Of a DNA stretch of 52,042 bases, positions 1 through 19,867 are shown in pieces. The translations under genes and the position numbers were made by a program. The notes beneath the pieces are model-generated. The model saw only the letters and a program-made list of their open reading frames with translations. It was not told where the DNA came from and made no database searches. The stretch comes from Acidimicrobiia bacterium (GTDB lineage Bacteria > Actinomycetota > Acidimicrobiia > Spongiisociales > UBA5794): assembly GCA_003235475.1 (NCBI GenBank), contig QJWC01000068.1, positions 1 to 52,042 on the forward strand, given 5' to 3'. Numbering within the stretch: the stretch's first letter is position 1; each line of letters opens with the position of its first letter.

Positions 1-2
1 CG

Positions 3-104
3 CTAGGCATTGGCACGGCGTGCGACCTTCTGCTCGAGCCAACGCCGGAGAACTGCGGCAAGGCGCGCAGCGGCTGCGTCGCTGAGTTGGACGTCAGGCC
101 GCAT
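3..104 (-). CDS. Hypothetical 33-residue ORF overlapping the XRE gene end
   Basis: A complete small frame opens with ATG inside the last codons of the XRE gene (the ATG lies 11 nt before the end of that gene) and ends with TAG at 3-5. The predicted peptide is rich in alanine and arginine, with a helical amphipathic look (AAAARLAAVLRRWLEQK). The overlap suggests translational coupling to the regulator. It could be a small partner of the regulator, or simply a chance frame in G+C-rich DNA. No family is recognised. Confidence 0.3.
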   Translation of the reverse strand: MRPDVQLSDAAAARLAAVLRRWLEQKVARRANA

Positions 105-309
105 CGGAATCGTCCTCGAAGAAGAACCCCATATCCCTTCCGAGGACGTTGGCGATGAGCGTCAGCGTCCTGAGGCTGGGCGTGCGAAAACCGCCTTCAT
201 ACGCACTTACTAGGGGGTACGAACGCTCGATGTCGATTGCGAGCTGTTCCCGTGAGAGACCGGCGTCCTCACGTGCTTGCCGGAGTTTGTGAGCCGCGAA
301 CATGGGCAT
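94..309 (-). CDS. XRE-family helix-turn-helix regulator, 71 aa
   Basis: A small single-domain DNA-binding protein of the Cro/C1 (HTH_3) type. Residues about 8-60 form the helix-turn-helix: LRQAREDAGLSREQLAIDI is the typical first and second helix, followed by YPLVSAYEGGFRTPS for the recognition helix and LTLIANVLG for the closing helices. The tail is acidic (EDDSD). There is no dimerisation or peptidase domain, so it resembles immunity repressors or antitoxin-like regulators of mobile elements. A second in-frame ATG at codon 3 is an alternative start. It is transcribed away from the 100-residue gene at 482, with 172 nt between them containing an inverted repeat that could be its operator. The role in controlling the element is inference. 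Confidence 0.75.
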   Translation of the reverse strand: MPMFAAHKLRQAREDAGLSREQLAIDIERSYPLVSAYEGGFRTPSLRTLTLIANVLGRDMGFFFEDDSDAA

Positions 310-348
310 ACGAAGAACTTCCTTCGTGTGCGCCCGTCGCGGTCACCT

Positions 349-365
349 GGGGAACCTGATTCCCC
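349..365. promoter_or_regulatory. Perfect inverted repeat, candidate operator
   Basis: GGGGAA-5 nt-TTCCCC, perfect 6-bp arms, in the divergent region between the XRE gene and the 100-residue gene, 40 nt upstream of the XRE start. Position and symmetry suit autoregulation by the neighbouring XRE protein. Only one copy was noticed, so the assignment is tentative. Confidence 0.35.
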
Positions 366-481
366 GGACCAGCCAGATGGACTGGGTGTTTCCACAATCC
401 ACGTGTCACCCTGAGGTAATACGCTGAATGCGAATGACATGAGTGTAGTTCACATCTCGAATCCGTCAAGGGGGTAGACAC

Positions 482-784
482 ATGCCAGAGTTTCGGGTCT
501 TCAAGACGAGTTGGACCACCGATCAAGCTGTTCGACGGATGGTGGAGGCGGTGGAAGTAGATGGCGGGATGGCAGCGTTCCAGGTCCGTGGACGGCGTGC
601 CCGGGCTCGGCTGAAGAAGGCGGCATATTCGCTGCCCGACGGTTATATCGCTGAAGGTATCGGACACGAACATGCACCCGACGAAGTGTCTCTCGCTTCG
701 AGCGAGTTCGTGACGTTCCTCACAGTTAGGCGGTCGCAGATGGACCTGCCCCGCCTGGGTCCCGCCTTCTTTCGCAACGACTAG
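482..784 (+). CDS. Hypothetical basic protein, 100 aa, in the mobile element
   Basis: No family is recognised. The start is supported by an AAGGGGG ribosome site about 9 nt upstream. The protein is basic in its middle (RVRGRRARARLKKAAY) with mixed alpha/beta character, no membrane segment and no cysteine. It is divergent from the XRE regulator and convergent with the recombinase; the two convergent stop codons overlap on a shared CTAG (781-784). A small basic protein beside a serine integrase could be a recombination directionality factor, but nothing in the sequence proves that. It may equally be a cargo gene of the element. Confidence 0.55.
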   Translation: MPEFRVFKTSWTTDQAVRRMVEAVEVDGGMAAFQVRGRRARARLKKAAYSLPDGYIAEGIGHEHAPDEVSLASSEFVTFLTVRRSQMDLPRLGPAFFRND

Positions 785-2148
785 TTCCGCACGACGAACG
801 TGGCCCGGTTGGGATCGTGGAAGTTCCAGCCTCGCACGGCCTCGCCTACCACAATGTGATCGAGGACCGCTGCGAGCAGTTCACGCTTGGTTTCCACGTC
901 GCCGTTTTCCCAAAGGTCACTAACGGCCTCCCCTGCCGACAGCGATGCGATCGTGCGACTGGTCGGTCGGAGCAGTGACCGCTCGGCTTCGAGGTCATCG
1001 TTGATCCTCTGCGATGCCTTCTCGAACTGTCGGCGGGAGATAGACCCTTCGGCGAACATCGTCGCCAACACGTCGGCCCGTTCCTCGAGCTCGGCGATCC
1101 GTGCCACGCTGCCGCGTTCTTCGGGCTCTGCTGCGAGATGCTCGTCAATAACCGGACTCGTGGCGACTTCGAAGATCCAGTCCCGTACTTGTTCCTCGAG
1201 CGGTTCGGCTTTGATCGTTGTTCCGCCGCATCCACCGAGCGCGGTCGGAGGGCATCCGTAGGAGCGGTTGCCGTGGTTCTTCCTGGTGGTGAGCGTGCGT
1301 CCGCACTTAGTGCAGCGGAGGAACCCGGTCAGAAGGTTCTGTGTCCTTGGCCCCTGTCTCGGCTTGCGTGCGGGGTCGTTCAAGATTGCCTGCAGACGTT
1401 CCCAGTCGCCGCGATCAACTAGTGGTGGCCAGTCAGCCTCGGCGACGATTTCGCCCTTGTACGCGCGGAGCCCTGCGTACCTCGGATTGTGGAGGTACCC
1501 CCGCAGAATCGCGGTGGTCACGGGACGGCCCGTCGTTGTCGTGATTCCCCGGTTCTGGAAATCGCGGACGATGCCGTGGATTGTCTCGCCGCGGAGGAAC
1601 CTCCGCACGGCTTCGCGGTAAGCCTCGGCCTCCCCGGTCCGGAAGTCGTGTCCGTTGTTCTCGTACCCAAATGCGCGGCGGCCGCCCATCCGCTTTCCCT
1701 TCAATGCGGCGTGACGATTGGCATCCTGGAGTCGGACCGCCTTCCGTTCCGACTCTTGGCGGGCCATCGCTCCAAAGATCCTGGCTTGAGCGCGGCCCTC
1801 GGGGCTGGAGAGATCGTACGAGCCAGACGAAACGGTTTCGACCTGTGTTCCGGTCGCCTCGAGTAGGTCCACCAGATCCTCAAGTTCCCGCGGATGTCGA
1901 GTGAGGCGGTCAGTTGCGTATGCGACCACCACATCGACTCCCCCGGCTCTGATCGTGTCAGTGAGGTCGATCCATCCCGGTCTGGTTGCACCCTTGTACG
2001 CGCTTCGGTCGTTGTCTGAGAACACACCAACGAGGTCCCATCCCCGCTTGTCCACGAGGGCGGTACAGAGGTCGTGTTGCCGAGCGACGCCCTCGGCTTC
2101 GCCGGTCGGGTCGTTGCTTATTCGCAGATAGACAGCAGCGCGCATCAT
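781..2148 (-). CDS. Large serine recombinase (integrase), about 455 aa
   Basis: A site-specific recombinase of the large serine family, which cuts and rejoins DNA through a 5'-phosphoserine link. The N-terminal resolvase domain (about residues 1-145) has AVYLRIS with the catalytic serine near residue 10, then DRLTRHPRELEDL and EGRAQARIFGAMARQESER. A recombinase domain follows (RMGGRRAFGY through YLHNPRYAGLRAYKGE). A zinc ribbon comes next, with CTKCGRTL and further cysteines near CPPTALGGC, and last a coiled-coil region (SVARIAELEERADVLATMF). The start was placed at the double ATG 2148/2145 because AGAGGA lies just upstream. Further upstream the frame only reads through antisense-frame dprA sequence. 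The gene looks intact. Its start lies about 40 nt from the dprA junction, so this enzyme most likely made the insertion. Confidence 0.93.
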   Translation of the reverse strand: MMRAAVYLRISNDPTGEAEGVARQHDLCTALVDKRGWDLVGVFSDNDRSAYKGATRPGWIDLTDTIRAGGVDVVVAYATDRLTRHPRELEDLVDLLEATGTQVETVSSGSYDLSSPEGRAQARIFGAMARQESERKAVRLQDANRHAALKGKRMGGRRAFGYENNGHDFRTGEAEAYREAVRRFLRGETIHGIVRDFQNRGITTTTGRPVTTAILRGYLHNPRYAGLRAYKGEIVAEADWPPLVDRGDWERLQAILNDPARKPRQGPRTQNLLTGFLRCTKCGRTLTTRKNHGNRSYGCPPTALGGCGGTTIKAEPLEEQVRDWIFEVATSPVIDEHLAAEPEERGSVARIAELEERADVLATMFAEGSISRRQFEKASQRINDDLEAERSLLRPTSRTIASLSAGEAVSDLWENGDVETKRELLAAVLDHIVVGEAVRGWNFHDPNRATFVVRN

Positions 2149-2182
2149 CGTTCCTCTCGGCTGACCACTCATAGTTGAGATT

Positions 2183-2195
2183 ATCAGATTCGCGT
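2183..2195. other. Element-chromosome junction (att half-site) inside dprA
   Basis: Reading the minus strand, dprA codes W-R-F-P-T-R and then abruptly I-stop. In the DprA family this motif is followed by N-R-x-I-A in a continuous frame. The switch from native to foreign DNA therefore falls within about ten bases here. Large serine integrases recombine at short cores of this kind, so this should be attL or attR. The exact core needs the other junction, which is outside the window. Confidence 0.65.
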
Positions 2196-2798
2196 CGGGA
2201 ACCTCCAACCGTCCGGTCGGATCCCCGGTGGATACTCGCTGACGACTCCCCCTCCAGATTCGAGGATCGAGTCGTGGAGGTCGCCGTTCGACCGCGGGTA
2301 TACGACGTCGATGCCCGAACCGAGCACAGCCACGCAGTGGCCGCAGGCCGCCCTGGACCCTTCGTGTGCCGCGGTGTCGATGCCGCGGGCCAGGCCGCTC
2401 ACGACCGTCCACCCCATCCGAGCCGCCCTTGCCCCGTACTCGGCTGCGAGATCGAGACCGTACGCGGTGCACGTTCGGGTGCCCACGATGCCGATCGACG
2501 GTCGATCACCACAGTCGCCACGCATGAACAGCCAGCGCGGCGCGTCAGGGAACCGCGCAAGGCGCGTCGGATAACCAGCGCCGTCCTTCTGCACCCACGA
2601 GACGCCGAGTTCAGCCAGCTGCGATCGCCGAATCGACGCATCGATCGAGACGGCCTCCCTGACGGTGGAATCATGCGACGTTTTCCCCTTCTCGATCGCA
2701 CGGGCGGCCCCCTTCGCCGAGCCGAAGCGCGCCATGAGCTTGTCGATCGCCCGCGGTGCCAGACCCGTGTACGACAGCCGCAACATCGCATCGCTCAT
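2184..2798 (-). pseudogene. dprA: dprA (DNA processing protein A), 5' part, cut by the element
   Basis: DprA loads RecA on incoming single-stranded DNA during transformation. This frame starts at an ATGA overlap with the end of comM. It keeps the N-terminal helical region and the first half of the Rossmann fold: GIVGTRTCTAYG near residue 100, SGLARGIDTAAHEGS, and AVLGSGIDVVYP. It stops after 204 residues at W-R-F-P-T-R-I, where the family continues with an RN-x-I-A motif and some 90-170 more residues. The remaining 3' part must lie beyond the inserted element, left of the window. The truncated protein lacks part of the DNA-binding fold and the RecA-interacting end, so it is probably inactive unless the element excises. 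Confidence 0.9.
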
Positions 2799-4258
2799 GC
2801 CGGGGACCTCAGCGCGAGCGCCTCTCGCACGTGTTCAGCACGCACGACGTCGGACCGTGCGAGATCGGCGATCGTGCAGCTCACGCGCCGGATTCGGTCC
2901 CACCCCCTCGCGCTCAGGGTCCCGCCGTTCATCGCGTTCTCGAGCATCGAGACGCCGCTGGGTTCGAAGGTCATTGCATCCAGGCGGCTACCCGTGAGGC
3001 GTCGATTCAGCTCACCCCGAGCCGCCTGACGCTCACGTGCATGCATCACCCGTTGTCGGACGGTCGCCGACGACTCCCCAGCATCGCCATGGAGGTCTCT
3101 GGCATCGAGACGCGGCACATCGATCGCCATGTCGAATCGATCTCGTAGCGGGCCCGACAGCCGACGTCGGTACTGCGCGAGCCGTGCATCGCTGCACTCG
3201 CATGGTGTGCGCCTGTCACCGAGGAACCCACAAGGGCAGGGATTCGTGGCAGCAACCACTTGCACGTCCGCGGGAAAGGTCACTGTGTCCGCGACACGCG
3301 CAACCGTGACGATCCCGTCCTCGAGTGGCTGCCGGAGCGCGTCCAGCGTCGAAGGAGCGAACTCGCCCAGTTCATCGAGGAACAACACACCTTGATGCGC
3401 CTTCGACACCTCGCCCGGACGCGGGACGCCTGATCCACCACCAACCATCGCCGGCAACGTCGATGAATGGTGAGGCGCCCGGAAGGGTGGAAGTGAACCG
3501 CTTCCGCGAGGGGTGCCGGCAGCCGCCCACACGAGCGCTACCTCGCGTTCGGCTGCGCGGTCGAGAGGCGGAAGGATCCCCGGGAGGCACTTCGACAACA
3601 GCGACTTCCCTGCCCCCGGAGGGCCGGAGAACAGCAGGTGGTGCCCTCCTGCGGCCGCGATCTCGAGTGCCCGCCTGGCCTGGTGCTGACCGCGCACCGC
3701 CGACAGGTCTGGACACCTCACGGGTGGGCTGGCGTGTGGCACGAGCCGCTCGACGGGGCGCATGCCGGTCGCCGTCGAGACCGCATGCCGGAGTTCTGCG
3801 ATGGCAGCAGTGCAGTCGATGCCCCGGTCGGAGATCATCGTGTCAGCCGACAAGAGGCAGCGACGCTTCCCGCGCTCTGCGACGACGATCCCGCCGAGCG
3901 CAGCCGGTACAGGCTGGACCTGCCCGTTCAGCGACAGTTCCCCGACCGCGACGAAGTCGTTGAACGAGATCGTCCCCTGCGACGCCGCTGCGATGATCGA
4001 CAGCGCTATCGGAAGGTCATACGTGACCCCGGCTTTCGGAATCCCTGCTGGTGAGAGATTGCACACCACGCGACCGCCCGGGAACGAGAAGCCCTGCTGG
4101 CGCATCGCTGACTTGACTCGCTCCCGCGCTTCGCGGACTGCAGCGTCGGGAAGCCCGACGATGATGAAGTTCCCCCGCCCGCCGAGGATCGTCGTTTCGA
4201 TGGTGACGGGTGTCGGATCCGCGCCGACCATGGCGCACGAGGTGACCGTTGAGTACAT
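2795..4258 (-). CDS. comM: ComM/YifB-family Mg-chelatase-like AAA+ ATPase, 487 aa
   Basis: The family includes ComM, a hexameric helicase that helps branch migration during natural transformation. The N-terminal lon-like domain (about 1-160; LPDAAVREARERVKSA, PAGIPKAG) is followed by the AAA+ core with Walker A GPPGAGKS near residue 212, GVLFLDELGEF as Walker B and AATNPCPCGF as sensor. The C-terminal Mg_chelatase_C region contains LSARGWDRIRRVSCTIADL. Length matches the family (about 500). It overlaps dprA by ATGA, so the two were a competence pair before the insertion. A -10 hexamer lies 6 nt upstream of the ATG with no ribosome site, so the transcript is probably leaderless. Confidence 0.95.
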   Translation of the reverse strand: MYSTVTSCAMVGADPTPVTIETTILGGRGNFIIVGLPDAAVREARERVKSAMRQQGFSFPGGRVVCNLSPAGIPKAGVTYDLPIALSIIAAASQGTISFNDFVAVGELSLNGQVQPVPAALGGIVVAERGKRRCLLSADTMISDRGIDCTAAIAELRHAVSTATGMRPVERLVPHASPPVRCPDLSAVRGQHQARRALEIAAAGGHHLLFSGPPGAGKSLLSKCLPGILPPLDRAAEREVALVWAAAGTPRGSGSLPPFRAPHHSSTLPAMVGGGSGVPRPGEVSKAHQGVLFLDELGEFAPSTLDALRQPLEDGIVTVARVADTVTFPADVQVVAATNPCPCGFLGDRRTPCECSDARLAQYRRRLSGPLRDRFDMAIDVPRLDARDLHGDAGESSATVRQRVMHARERQAARGELNRRLTGSRLDAMTFEPSGVSMLENAMNGGTLSARGWDRIRRVSCTIADLARSDVVRAEHVREALALRSPA

Positions 4259-15296: not shown

Positions 15297-18200
15297 CTAC
15301 ATGTTGCGCCGGTACCGGCCGCCCACTTCGAAGAGTGCCTGGCTGATCTGTCCGAGCGAGCAGTGTCGCACGGCATCGACAAGCGCCGAGAACACGTTCG
15401 CACCGCTGAGCGCCGCCTGCTGGAGCTGATCGAGGGCGGCCTCAGCCTCCTTCGCATAGCGCGCGCGGAGGGCGGCGAGATCGTTGATCAGCCGATCCTT
15501 GTCCTCGTCGGTCGAACGGATGACCTCACTGGGACGGACGAAAGGTGAACCCTCAGGCGAAAGGAAGCTGTTCACTCCGATGATGGGGAGATCGCCGCTG
15601 TCCTTGAGGGTCTCGTAGAGCATCGATTCTTCCTGGATGCGCGACCGTTGGTACATGGTCTCCATGGCACCGAGCACACCGCCCCGCTCGGTGAGGCGGT
15701 CGAACTCCGTCATCACGGCCTCCTCGACGAGGTCGGTCAGCTCCTCGATGATGAATGAGCCCTGGCCGCTGTTCTCGTTCCGGTTGAGTCCGAGCTCGCG
15801 GTTGATGATCAGCTGGATTGCGAGTGCCCTCCTCACCGAGGCCTCGGTCGGCGTCGTGATTGCCTCGTCGAACGCGTTCGTGTGGAGCGAGTTGCAGTTG
15901 TCGTAGATCGCGTAGAGGGCCTGGAGCGTCGTGCGGATGTCGTTGAACTCGATGTCCTGCGCGTGGAGGCTCCGCCCGGAGGTCTGGATGTGGTACTTGA
16001 GCTTCTGGGATCGCTCGTCTGCCCCATACACCTCGCGCATGGCCTTTGCCCAGATCCTCCGCGCGACGCGCCCGATGACCGCGTACTCGGGGTCGAGCCC
16101 ATTCGAGAAGAAGAAGGAGAGGTTGGGTGCGAACGCGTCGACGTCCATGCCCCTCGCCAGAAAATACTCGACGAAGGTGAACCCGTTGGCGAGCGTGAAC
16201 GCCAATTGTGTGATCGGGTTCGCTCCGGCCTCTGCCATGTGGTACCCGGATATCGATACCGAGTAGAAGTTCCGGACGGCGTGATCGAGGAAGTACTGCT
16301 GGATGTCGCCCTGCATCGAGAGTGCGAACTCCGTCGAGAAGATGCAGGTGTTCTGCGCCTGATCCTCCTTGAGGATGTCGGCCTGGATCGTGCCGCGAAT
16401 CGTCGATAGGGTCTTGGCCTTGATGCGTTCGTACACCTCGCGCTCGAGGACGTCAGCACCCGTCACGCCGAGCAGCAGCAGGCCAGAACCGTCGTGGCCT
16501 TCAGGGAGTTCGCCGTGGTATTCGGGGTGCGGACCGCCTCGCTCGTCGAGGATCGCTTCGACGGAAGAGCGGACCTGGTCCGTGAGCCCTTGTTCACGGA
16601 TGTACGCCTCGCACGCCTGGTCGATCGCAACGTTGAGGTAGAACGCGAGCATGGTCGGCGCCGGCCCGTTGATGGTCATCGACACAGACGTCGTCGGACT
16701 CAGAAGGTCGAAACCCGAGTAGAGCTTCTTGGCGTCGTCGAGCGTCGAAATCGAGACACCGGAGTTACCAACCTTGCCGTAGATGTCGGGCCGCCTCGCA
16801 GGATCATGTCCGTAGAGGGTCACCGAATCGAAGGCGGTGGACAGGCGCACAGCTGGCATCCCCTTGGCGAGGTAGTGGAAACGCCGGTTCGTCTGCTCGG
16901 GCCCTCCCTCGCCGGCGAACATCCTCGTCGGATCCTCTGCCATCCGGCGGAACGGGTAGACCCCCGCCGTGAACGGGAAGGAGCCGGGAAGGTTCTCCTG
17001 GCGGATCCATCGCACTCGATCCGCCCAGCCGTCGAGCCTCGGATGGATCACCTTTGGGAACTCGGTGCCGGAGAGGGACCGCACGGTGTTGTCGACCACG
17101 ACGTCGCGGCCGCGCACGTCGTAGGTGACGGTCCCGCCGGAGTAGGTCGCAACCCGGTGATCCCACTCTTCGAGCGCATCGTCGACGTCCGCGGGCAATG
17201 AGGCGCGCGCCGCGGCTGCCTGCGCCGCGATCTCGGCGGACTCAACGAGTTCCGACGCGCGGGACAGCGACTGAACGTCTGCGGCGAGGGCCGCGGAGCG
17301 CTCGGTGTCGTCGTTGTACACGCGCACGGCGTCCGCGATCTCGGACAAGTACCGGGTCCTCGATCGCGGAACGAGGGGACCCCGGGAAGGAGCGCCGCCT
17401 CGGTGCGGCACGTCGGCGAACGAGCCGAAGCCTGCAGCGTCCACCGCTCTCAGGATTCGCTCGTAGAGCTCCTGCGTGCCGGCGTCGTTGAACTGCGAGG
17501 CGATCGTCGCCACCACGGGCAGGTCAGCCTCGTCCGCGTCGAAGGCGAGGCGATTGCGGCGGTACTGCTTTCGCACGTCCCGGAGCGCGTCCTCGGCGCC
17601 CTGGCGATCGGACTTGTTGATTGCGATCACGTCTGCGAAGTCGAGCATGTCGATCTTCTCGAGTTGGGTTCCCGCGCCGTACTCGGGGGTCATCACGTAC
17701 ACGGCGACATCCGAGGAATCCACGATCTCCGTATCCGACTGCCCGATCCCCGATGTCTCGAGGAACACGAGATCGAACCCAGCGGCCTTCACAACCGCGA
17801 CCGCATCGGCGACGTGGGGCGACATCGCAAGGTTGGCCTGCCGTGTCGCGAGCGACCGCATGAATGTCGTCTCGCCGGCAACCGAATTCATGCGGATGCG
17901 ATCCCCCAGGAGAGCCCCACCCGTGCGTCGTCGCGACGGGTCGACGGAGATCACCGCGATCTTGCGGTCCGGGAAGTCGCGTCGGAACCGGAGCACGAGC
18001 TCATCGAGGATCGAGGACTTCCCCGACCCGCCCGTGCCGGTGAAGCCGACCACGGGCGTTTCCATGCCGCTTGCTCGCGATCGGATGGCCGAGAGGACAT
18101 CGTCAGCCCGCGAGGAGTGGTTCTCCGCAAGGGTGATCGCGCGAGCGATCGCCGCTGGCTCGCCGCCGACCACCCGCTCCTCGAGGTCGCCCTGCCATGC

Positions 18201-18623
18201 ATCCTGGGTGTGTGAAGCGCGTTGGAGGAGATCGTCGATCATCCCCGTGAGCCCAAGCGTCCTTCCGTCGTCAGGCGAGTAGATACGGGCGACGCCTTGA
18301 TCGAGAAGTTCCTGGCCCTCCTCGGGGAGGATCGTGCCTCCGCCACCACCGAAGATGCCGATCTCCGATCCGCCGGCATCGTCGAGCAGCTTCCGCAAGT
18401 AGCGGAAGAACTCCATGTGCCCGCCCTGGTAGGAAGTGACGGCGACGGCGTGGGCGTCTTCTTCGATCGCCGCCTCGGCTATGTCCGCCGCCGAACGGTC
18501 GTGTCCCAGATGGATGACCTCCGCACCCGCGGCTTGGAGGATCCTTCGCATGACGTTGATCGACGCGTCATGGCCGTCAAAGAGGGACGTAGCCGTCACG
18601 ATCCGGACGCGGGGAGCTGCCAT
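15297..18623 (-). CDS. icmF: Fused isobutyryl-CoA mutase IcmF, about 1108 aa
   Basis: A B12-dependent mutase that interconverts isobutyryl-CoA and n-butyryl-CoA, with its G-protein chaperone built in. Order: cobalamin-binding domain (about 1-140; [15 protein letters not shown] with the lower-ligand His, and [14 protein letters not shown]), MeaB-like GTPase (about 185-430; Walker [48 protein letters not shown]), then the TIM-barrel mutase domain ([53 protein letters not shown]-like [10 protein letters not shown]). Start at 18623 was chosen on the DGHD domain and a -10 hexamer 6 nt upstream; the open frame runs on but encodes only antisense of the GT87 gene. Length fits known IcmF. It was probably placed between rimM and trmD by rearrangement. 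Confidence 0.96.
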
Positions 18624-18629
18624 GTCGCA

Positions 18630-18635
18630 AGGATA
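18630..18635 (-). promoter_or_regulatory. -10 element of icmF, leaderless type
   Basis: TATCCT 6 nt before the icmF ATG; the best match to the consensus TANNNT/TATAAT among the set. Confidence 0.5.
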
Positions 18636-18658
18636 GGGAGCACGCTCCACGGACTCGA

Positions 18659-19867
18659 TCAGAGATCGGACGCCGTTTCCCGGATCGCCTGGCCTTGCCG
18701 GTCCGAACGGTGCTCGAGCTGCGTGACGATCCATGCGAACGTCGCGAGCAGGACGAGCGGTGCCAGGTGGAGCGCGCGGCCAAACATGTCGAGTTGCCAC
18801 GCAGTCATCTGGTCGCCACCGTACAGGACGGCGCCGAGCACGAGCCCGATGAGCCCGGCCTCGGAGCTCGCGAGGGCACCGCTGCGCACGAGCAAGGCTC
18901 CCGCGACCAGAAGGACCGTCCAGTCGTACACGAGTCCGTGGACCGCCAGCAGCACTGAAGCAACGATGGCGAGAGCAGCACATGTTCCGACGTCGGCCGC
19001 CCGCCTGAGGCCGCTCAGGAGGAGCGCGAGGACGACAGCCGACAGACCCATCGCCACAATCAGGGCGGCGGTCGACTCGCCGAACGCCAGACGCGCGGTA
19101 GCCCACACCGTGACCTCGGTATCGGGGCGGACAAGGCTCGACGTGTCGGGGAGACGATGGAACCACGCAGACCAGCCGCCCGGTAACCACCACCATGAGA
19201 CAGCGACCAGGCAGATCGTGGTGCCGAGTCCGACGATGATCCACCGCCATCGACGCCTGGCGTCCACCAGCCACCACACCACGAAGCCGAGGAGCAAGTG
19301 CGGTTTGAAGGCCGCGAGGGCGAGGAGGGATGCGCCAGCCATGCCCTTTCGGCGCTCGAGGAGGAGAACGCTCGACGCGACGAGCGCGGTGAAGAAGAAC
19401 GCGACCTGCCCGTACCAGACGTTGAAGAATCCGGCCAGCGTGACGAGAAGGATGACGATCAACGTGCCGACTCGTGCAATGCCAAGGCGTCTGAGCGCCA
19501 TTGCAATCAGCGAGATGCCAGCAAGTGTCCACAAGGGAAACACGAGACCGAACGGGAGCCAGGAAACCGGGATCACGGCGACAGAGAACCACGGTGGGTT
19601 CAGTGGCAGCGCCGCGCCGACCGCGACGAACTCCGCACGCTCCGGGTCGTACAACGCCTCACCCAAGCGGTCGGACGCAAGCGACCCGGCGGCTTGGAAA
19701 CCACGGAGGTCCTGCCCGAAGTCGATGTCGGCGAGCTCGGTCCCCGGCGAACGCACGAGGTGTCGGGCAAAGGTGGTCCACGCAACCGCGCCGAACGTCA
19801 GTATCACAACCAACGATCCGATCGCGACGTACCGCTCCCATGACAGCCGCGAACGCTCTGGTTGCAT
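18659..19867 (-). CDS. GT87-type (DUF2029) polyprenyl-phosphate glycosyltransferase, 402 aa, copy 1
   Basis: A GT-C fold integral membrane protein with about ten helices. The first helix is followed by an outside loop with acidic residues ([15 protein letters not shown]), the usual site of the catalytic aspartate. The [17 protein letters not shown] segment then corresponds to the PP-x-x-x-x-x-x-P-x-x-x-x-P motif of GT87 (PimE-like mannosyltransferases). Further marks are [19 protein letters not shown] and [16 protein letters not shown]. It is clearly paralogous to the gene at 22497. Such enzymes move sugars from polyprenyl phosphate to outer-face glycans; the acceptor is unknown. A -10 hexamer lies 6 nt before the ATG. 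It separates rimM from icmF. Confidence 0.85.

Follow-up and report, generated by a model that had tools for sequence, protein, structure and literature searches.

Mobile elements that interrupt competence genes are known from several bacteria. Insertions into comK, comM and comFA are on record (PMC4774983), as the preliminary description of this locus had anticipated for the first two; those in comM occur in Acinetobacter, Aggregatibacter and others, and for insertions in comK, comM, comFA and comYC it has been argued that reduced transformation guards the resident element (PMC4774983). The A118 integrase is a serine recombinase (PMC3556126). Across predicted site-specific large serine recombinases (LSRs), PMC10083194 gives Mg-chelatase homologues as the targets of 12.4% and reports that DNA competence genes are strongly enriched among LSR targets.

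We analyzed a stretch of 52,042 bases (the window), which is the entire contig C95 of a draft genome, G000 (2.14 Mb in 117 contigs, 95% complete). Near its start, a gene for an LSR adjoins a broken dprA. The evidence set out below makes it very likely that a mobile element, by means of its own LSR, underwent site-specific integration into the host dprA, inside the conserved W-R-F-P-x-R-N-R codons. Coordinates of the features are collected in Table 1.

Table 1. Features at the two ends of the element and in the adjoining host DNA (window coordinates unless a contig is named)
Feature	Coordinates	Strand	Family matches and remarks
Element side of attL	1-2194	.	G+C 61.6%
Small XRE-type helix-turn-helix regulator	94-309	-	PF13560, PF01381; phage transcriptional regulator PHROGs
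100-aa ORF of the element	482-784	+	no family match
LSR, 455 aa, intact frame	781-2148	-	PF00239, PF07508, PF13408; phrog_95 integrase
ACG common to attL (window) and attR (C58:349-351)	2193-2195	-	putative crossover, central dinucleotide AC
dprA 5' part, 204 codons, ending WRFPTR-I-stop	2184-2798	-	PF02481 4-148/212; TIGR00732 12-148/220
comM/yifB, intact, host context	2795-4258	-	TIGR00368 above cut-off
dprA 3' half, to the native stop	G000:C58:349-594		(T)RNRIIVGLSDVVVVVEAG...; PF02481 142-211

The split dprA and the probable element between its halves

Within the window, dprA follows directly on comM (yifB), which overlaps its start. The frame matches PF02481 (DNA_processg_A) with an E value of 4e-40 and, as had been read from the letters, is native up to ...DGWRFPTR before turning into I-stop. 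Its host portion stops near position 2193, and the final I and stop codons are supplied by the element. The product is almost surely inactive, judging from its sequence, as the final third of the PF02481 fold is missing and just these two codons are gained.

A 3' half of dprA, predicted to exist beyond the element, is indeed present in the same genome. It lies on contig C58, where from base 349 the reading is ACG AGG AAC CGA ATC ATC (T-R-N-R-I-I), so that it begins at the next codon after the break and continues as an 80-codon remnant. A PF02481 search of the 117-contig draft returned two matches only, the two halves (the C58 match spans C58:334-543), and dprA in G000 is therefore split, with no further, intact copy found. 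The TIGR00732 dprA model is likewise divided, with positions 12-148 in the window fragment and 148-218 in the C58 piece. When joined, the halves encode a 282-aa DprA in frame, which aligns over its full length to the protein of a same-genus genome (G001), the 283 columns containing one gap. Taken separately, the halves each align to the G001 protein gap-free, with 55% and 76% identity, both frames being open, and they meet at G001 residues 203 and 204. The dprA of G001, rather than sharing the truncation in the absence of an element, is intact. Both junctions lie within contigs, which rules out a contig-border effect.

Foreign DNA precedes the 3' half on C58 (348 bp) and follows the 5' part in the window. 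An earlier estimate had extended the element over positions 1-2798; this holds for about 1-2194, and what lies beyond, up to 2798, is host dprA. The G+C content of the element side (61.6%) is about 4 sd below the mean of equal-sized windows over the remainder of the contig (65.5%, sd 1.0%). All tested genes from 2,795 onward are ordinary chromosome, among them comM/yifB, a radical-SAM pair, methylmalonyl-CoA mutase, SRP proteins, SMC, RecG and D-Ala ligase. This chromosomal part also holds, at 15300-19592 on the minus strand, an IcmF-like fusion of 1431 aa that combines a B12-binding domain, a MeaB-type GTPase and methylmalonyl-CoA mutase.

The integrase of the element is a single long protein in which the Resolvase, Recombinase and Zn_ribbon_recom domains all score above cut-off; it matches the phrog_95 integrase family with an E value of 5e-101. 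Its catalytic positions R9, S11, D13, R23, R81 and R84 are invariant across nine aligned LSRs. The preliminary description had placed the gene close to the break and pointing into the element, and we find the same: the ATG, on the strand of dprA, comes ~45 nt after the crossover, so the LSR is directed inward. Behind it come the 100-aa ORF and the divergent XRE-type regulator, which together with the integrase make up the genes on the C95 side; the C58 side holds its 348 bp, including the beginning of a secreted-protein-like frame. Both contigs end inside the element, whose interior is absent from the assembly, and no joining contig was found by contig-end matching, in which the starts of C95 and C58 match nothing else in the assembly. 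The frame that begins at the C58 end (L004:3-182, minus strand) is signal-peptide-like; over 80 bp, its start and the sequence upstream show 73% identity to the corresponding part of a secreted-protein-like host gene on contig C12 (L006:1500-1640).

Serine integrases of the phiC31 family usually have a very short core and a dyad-symmetric attB. At this locus, attL reads GGAGGTTCCCG-ACG-CGAATCTGATAATC and attR reads TTGTCGTTTTCCT-ACG-AGGAACCGAATC. Comparison of the two junctions, as had been proposed, gives an exact common core of 3 bp, ACG, with little other nearby likeness, and this fits site-specific recombination; for mycobacterial serine integrases, the quoted cores are 5-8 bp long (PMC8092301). 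The implied attB is GGTTCC-CGACGA-GGAACC, with perfect 6-bp inverted arms and AC at its centre, and of the centres tried for the implied attP, this AC gives the strongest dyad, with 11 of 20 positions. The locus presents features of site-specific integration, namely two junctions that divide one target, a common core, an exact empty site and an intact gene in G001.

From these sites we infer that strands were exchanged at the AC dinucleotide. In the proposed sequence of events, the LSR would pair the attP of the element with an attB within dprA that has GGTTCC-CG-AC-GA-GGAACC at its centre, and exchange at AC would generate attL, now in the window, and attR, now on C58. Integration would in this way divide dprA into the 204-codon 5' frame and the 80-codon 3' remnant. 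DprA would be inactive for as long as the element is integrated, and precise excision, which may still occur, could restore it.

Insertions at the same dprA codons in other genomes

Matches to dprA were found in 127 of the 138 genomes of the order and in 372 of the 396 genomes sampled from the phylum. Besides G000, three genomes of the order (G042, G071 and G072) have a dprA that is broken within the same FP-x-R-N codons, and in all three, foreign DNA flanks both halves of the gene. G042 belongs to another family of the order; its LSR, which is 33-34% identical to that of the window, begins ~40 nt past the same break, and TTCCCGCC is found at both junctions. The G042 element also encodes a DUF3631 protein, a small-terminase gene, an Mrr-type nuclease and a RelA/SpoT-domain protein. 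In G071 and G072, two members of one genus in a third family, a tyrosine integrase adjoins the dprA 3' half, and the common core is CCCACCCA in the former and a 27-bp imperfect repeat in the latter. Given that these two integrases are 47.5% identical and the rest of the elements little alike, they look like separate insertions as far as the sequences tell. The survey of 396 genomes of the phylum additionally identified G652, from a different family, in which dprA stops at PWHFPAR and gives way to unrelated sequence for about 200 bases up to the contig end; any integrase lies outside the sequence present.

Were four independent insertions distributed uniformly along a gene of ~900 bp, the other three would all land within ~9 bp of the first in about 1 case in a million by hand arithmetic, (9/900)^3. 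The presence of unrelated elements at the same spot suggests that mobile DNA has a natural docking site in this stretch of dprA.

Several further candidates were set aside. The dprA halves of G050, G048, G127 and G105 end at contig borders without foreign sequence and were not counted as insertions; their breaks may reflect mixed populations with occupied and empty sites or ordinary assembly breaks. In G050 (end of L059, start of L060) and G048 (end of L061, start of L062), the contigs stop exactly at the dprA site, and their ends share no more than 11 and 16 bp of overlap, respectively, which is what coexisting occupied and empty copies might leave; no element contig was seen in either. The phylum survey also yielded G632, G206 and G558, where dprA is broken elsewhere than at this site. 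G632 is a single-contig genome from another family of the phylum, and its dprA (G632:C1:1558255-1558901; L134, L150) is apparently frameshifted near PF02481 position 157.

Across 345 genomes of the class, the best relatives of the window LSR are 41-44% identical to it, and the only copies that adjoin dprA are those of G000 and G042; among relatives in genome-contig and viral-contig collections, no examined locus has dprA beside it. In none of these searches did a relative exceed about 44% identity, except for 48% over one 149-residue piece. Relatives of the G072 tyrosine integrase are abundant in 395 genomes, and of the loci examined, its own copy alone lies near dprA. A recombinase of this kind beside a split dprA elsewhere, for which the preliminary description proposed a search, is present in G042, in another family and with a considerably diverged enzyme, and in the genomes searched no closer copy adjoins dprA. 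The related proposal, that the dprA motif is a conserved landing site, holds for the site, which several unrelated integrases use, and less so for this one enzyme.

One family of tyrosine integrases appears unusually expanded in some genomes, among G071, G072 and members of genera g25 and g49, with dozens of first-look candidates (up to 42 in G071) that mostly lie distant from dprA. In G071, a further tyrosine integrase is encoded just upstream of comM (L118:1502-2683, minus strand), and the comM-dprA region of this genome may have been struck from both sides.

The other genomes bear on how the G000 locus itself should be read. It is improbable, though it remains the best of the alternatives, that the insertion is real and the window LSR is not its maker, in which case the LSR would lie in a second element, or be the remnant of a composite or tandem insertion, and another integrase, at the C58 end, would have used dprA. 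That end of the element comprises only 348 bp, with neighbour genes out of view, and in G071 and G072 this site is used by tyrosine integrases. Yet the distance of the LSR from attL, ~45 nt, is typical of the enzyme responsible for a site, the same layout recurs in G042 with a different LSR, and serine integrases tolerate a core as short as the 3 bp here. We infer that the window LSR made the insertion. Very unlikely is a reading in which the assembly wrongly fused a phage or plasmid contig to the chromosome at one junction or at both: although G000 is a draft, metagenome-type assembly from which the interior of the element is absent, so that neither contig spans it, two separate chimeras would be needed at the same codon, both with ACG and with the integrase at the expected distance, and the unrelated genome G042 has the same arrangement. 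Least probable of all is that dprA is simply decaying in this lineage beside an unrelated recombinase, the 3' piece being a leftover; this would explain a broken gene and a genome that lacks an intact copy, but not halves that meet at the same codon without gap or loss, that are open and conserved at the identities given above and bordered each by foreign DNA, or a break point that recurs with integrases in other genomes. LSR-mediated, site-specific integration into dprA is the reading we retain in what follows.

A peptide-encoded inverted repeat at the insertion point

Dimeric recombinases bind dyad-symmetric DNA. Using the geometry of the G000 attB, we scored inverted-repeat symmetry along 30 intact dprA orthologues, which are kin to each other and so do not amount to 30 independent trials. 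The insertion point is the top of 651 positions for short dyad symmetry, with a mean score of 5.2 of 7 at the site versus 2.0 along the gene. With arms taken at 3-7, 1-9, 2-10 or 3-12 bp from the centre, it keeps the first rank; scoring the innermost 6 bp places it third, and with ranges that reach 15 bp it drops to 14th and 19th. Redrawing the codons synonymously left the dyad level unchanged (5.46), which indicates that the peptide R-F-P-x-R-N-R (CGG TTC C...G GAA CCG) itself gives rise to the symmetry, with no separate selection for it. Dyad-symmetric DNA forced by the invariant RFPxRNR peptide is a probable reason for the choice of this site, and the same symmetry may be why unrelated recombinases converge on it.

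DprA brings RecA onto incoming single strands. Loss of DprA in the integrated state would be expected to lower transformation and, with it, the frequency at which an empty allele takes the place of the element; that the element gains protection in this manner is conjecture, by analogy with the competence genes named at the outset. Taken together, these ideas can be extended, tentatively and with less confidence than the integration itself, to a broader possibility: the RFPxRNR codons may be a convergent docking site that both integrase superfamilies adopted independently, with insertions that switch DprA off reversibly and so shield the element from transformation.

Relation to described insertions and significance

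Insertion into competence genes is already known. What we have not seen described is the use of one dprA site by both integrase superfamilies and an inverted repeat there that is encoded by a peptide. In openly licensed papers, our search met no account of dprA serving as an attachment site; the target lists that supplement PMC10083194 may include it.

With these insertions, dprA, which is matched in nearly all sampled genomes, joins the competence genes broken by mobile elements, and serine and tyrosine integrases are seen to use the same few of its codons. A strictly conserved peptide whose codons make an inverted repeat offers a testable reason for the choice of a site in protein-coding sequence. 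Should this hold generally, peptides of this type could be used to predict where elements integrate and in the search for integrases that have natural attB sites. The locus also offers an instance, outside the classic competent species, where a proposed anti-curing attack on transformation can be studied.

Among phages, the nearest relatives of the window LSR are the enzymes of the Mycobacterium prophage prophiGD54-2 and phage Kumao, with 34-37% identity. Prophages of the prophiGD54-2 cluster insert at MAB_3230 or MAB_3265 (PMC8092301), unlike the insertion in dprA here. Close parallels in kind are the serine-integrase prophages in Listeria comK and the related integrases in comFA of the Bacillus cereus group, which likewise split a competence gene (PMC4774983). 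Those cases involve other genes and unrelated sites, whereas ours comes from the draft genome of an uncultured actinobacterium and an element known from its ends alone. For the elements in comM and Mg-chelatase-like ATPase genes, comM is itself the target; in G000, comM is intact immediately upstream and dprA is struck instead. Pneumococcal prophages provide a further likeness, in that independently evolved integrases each disrupt a transformation gene, comYC or ssbB, as the part of PMC12637031 considered here reports. They differ in the genes hit and in the role of DprA, which in that account is a regulator of induction, whereas at our locus its gene is the attachment site.
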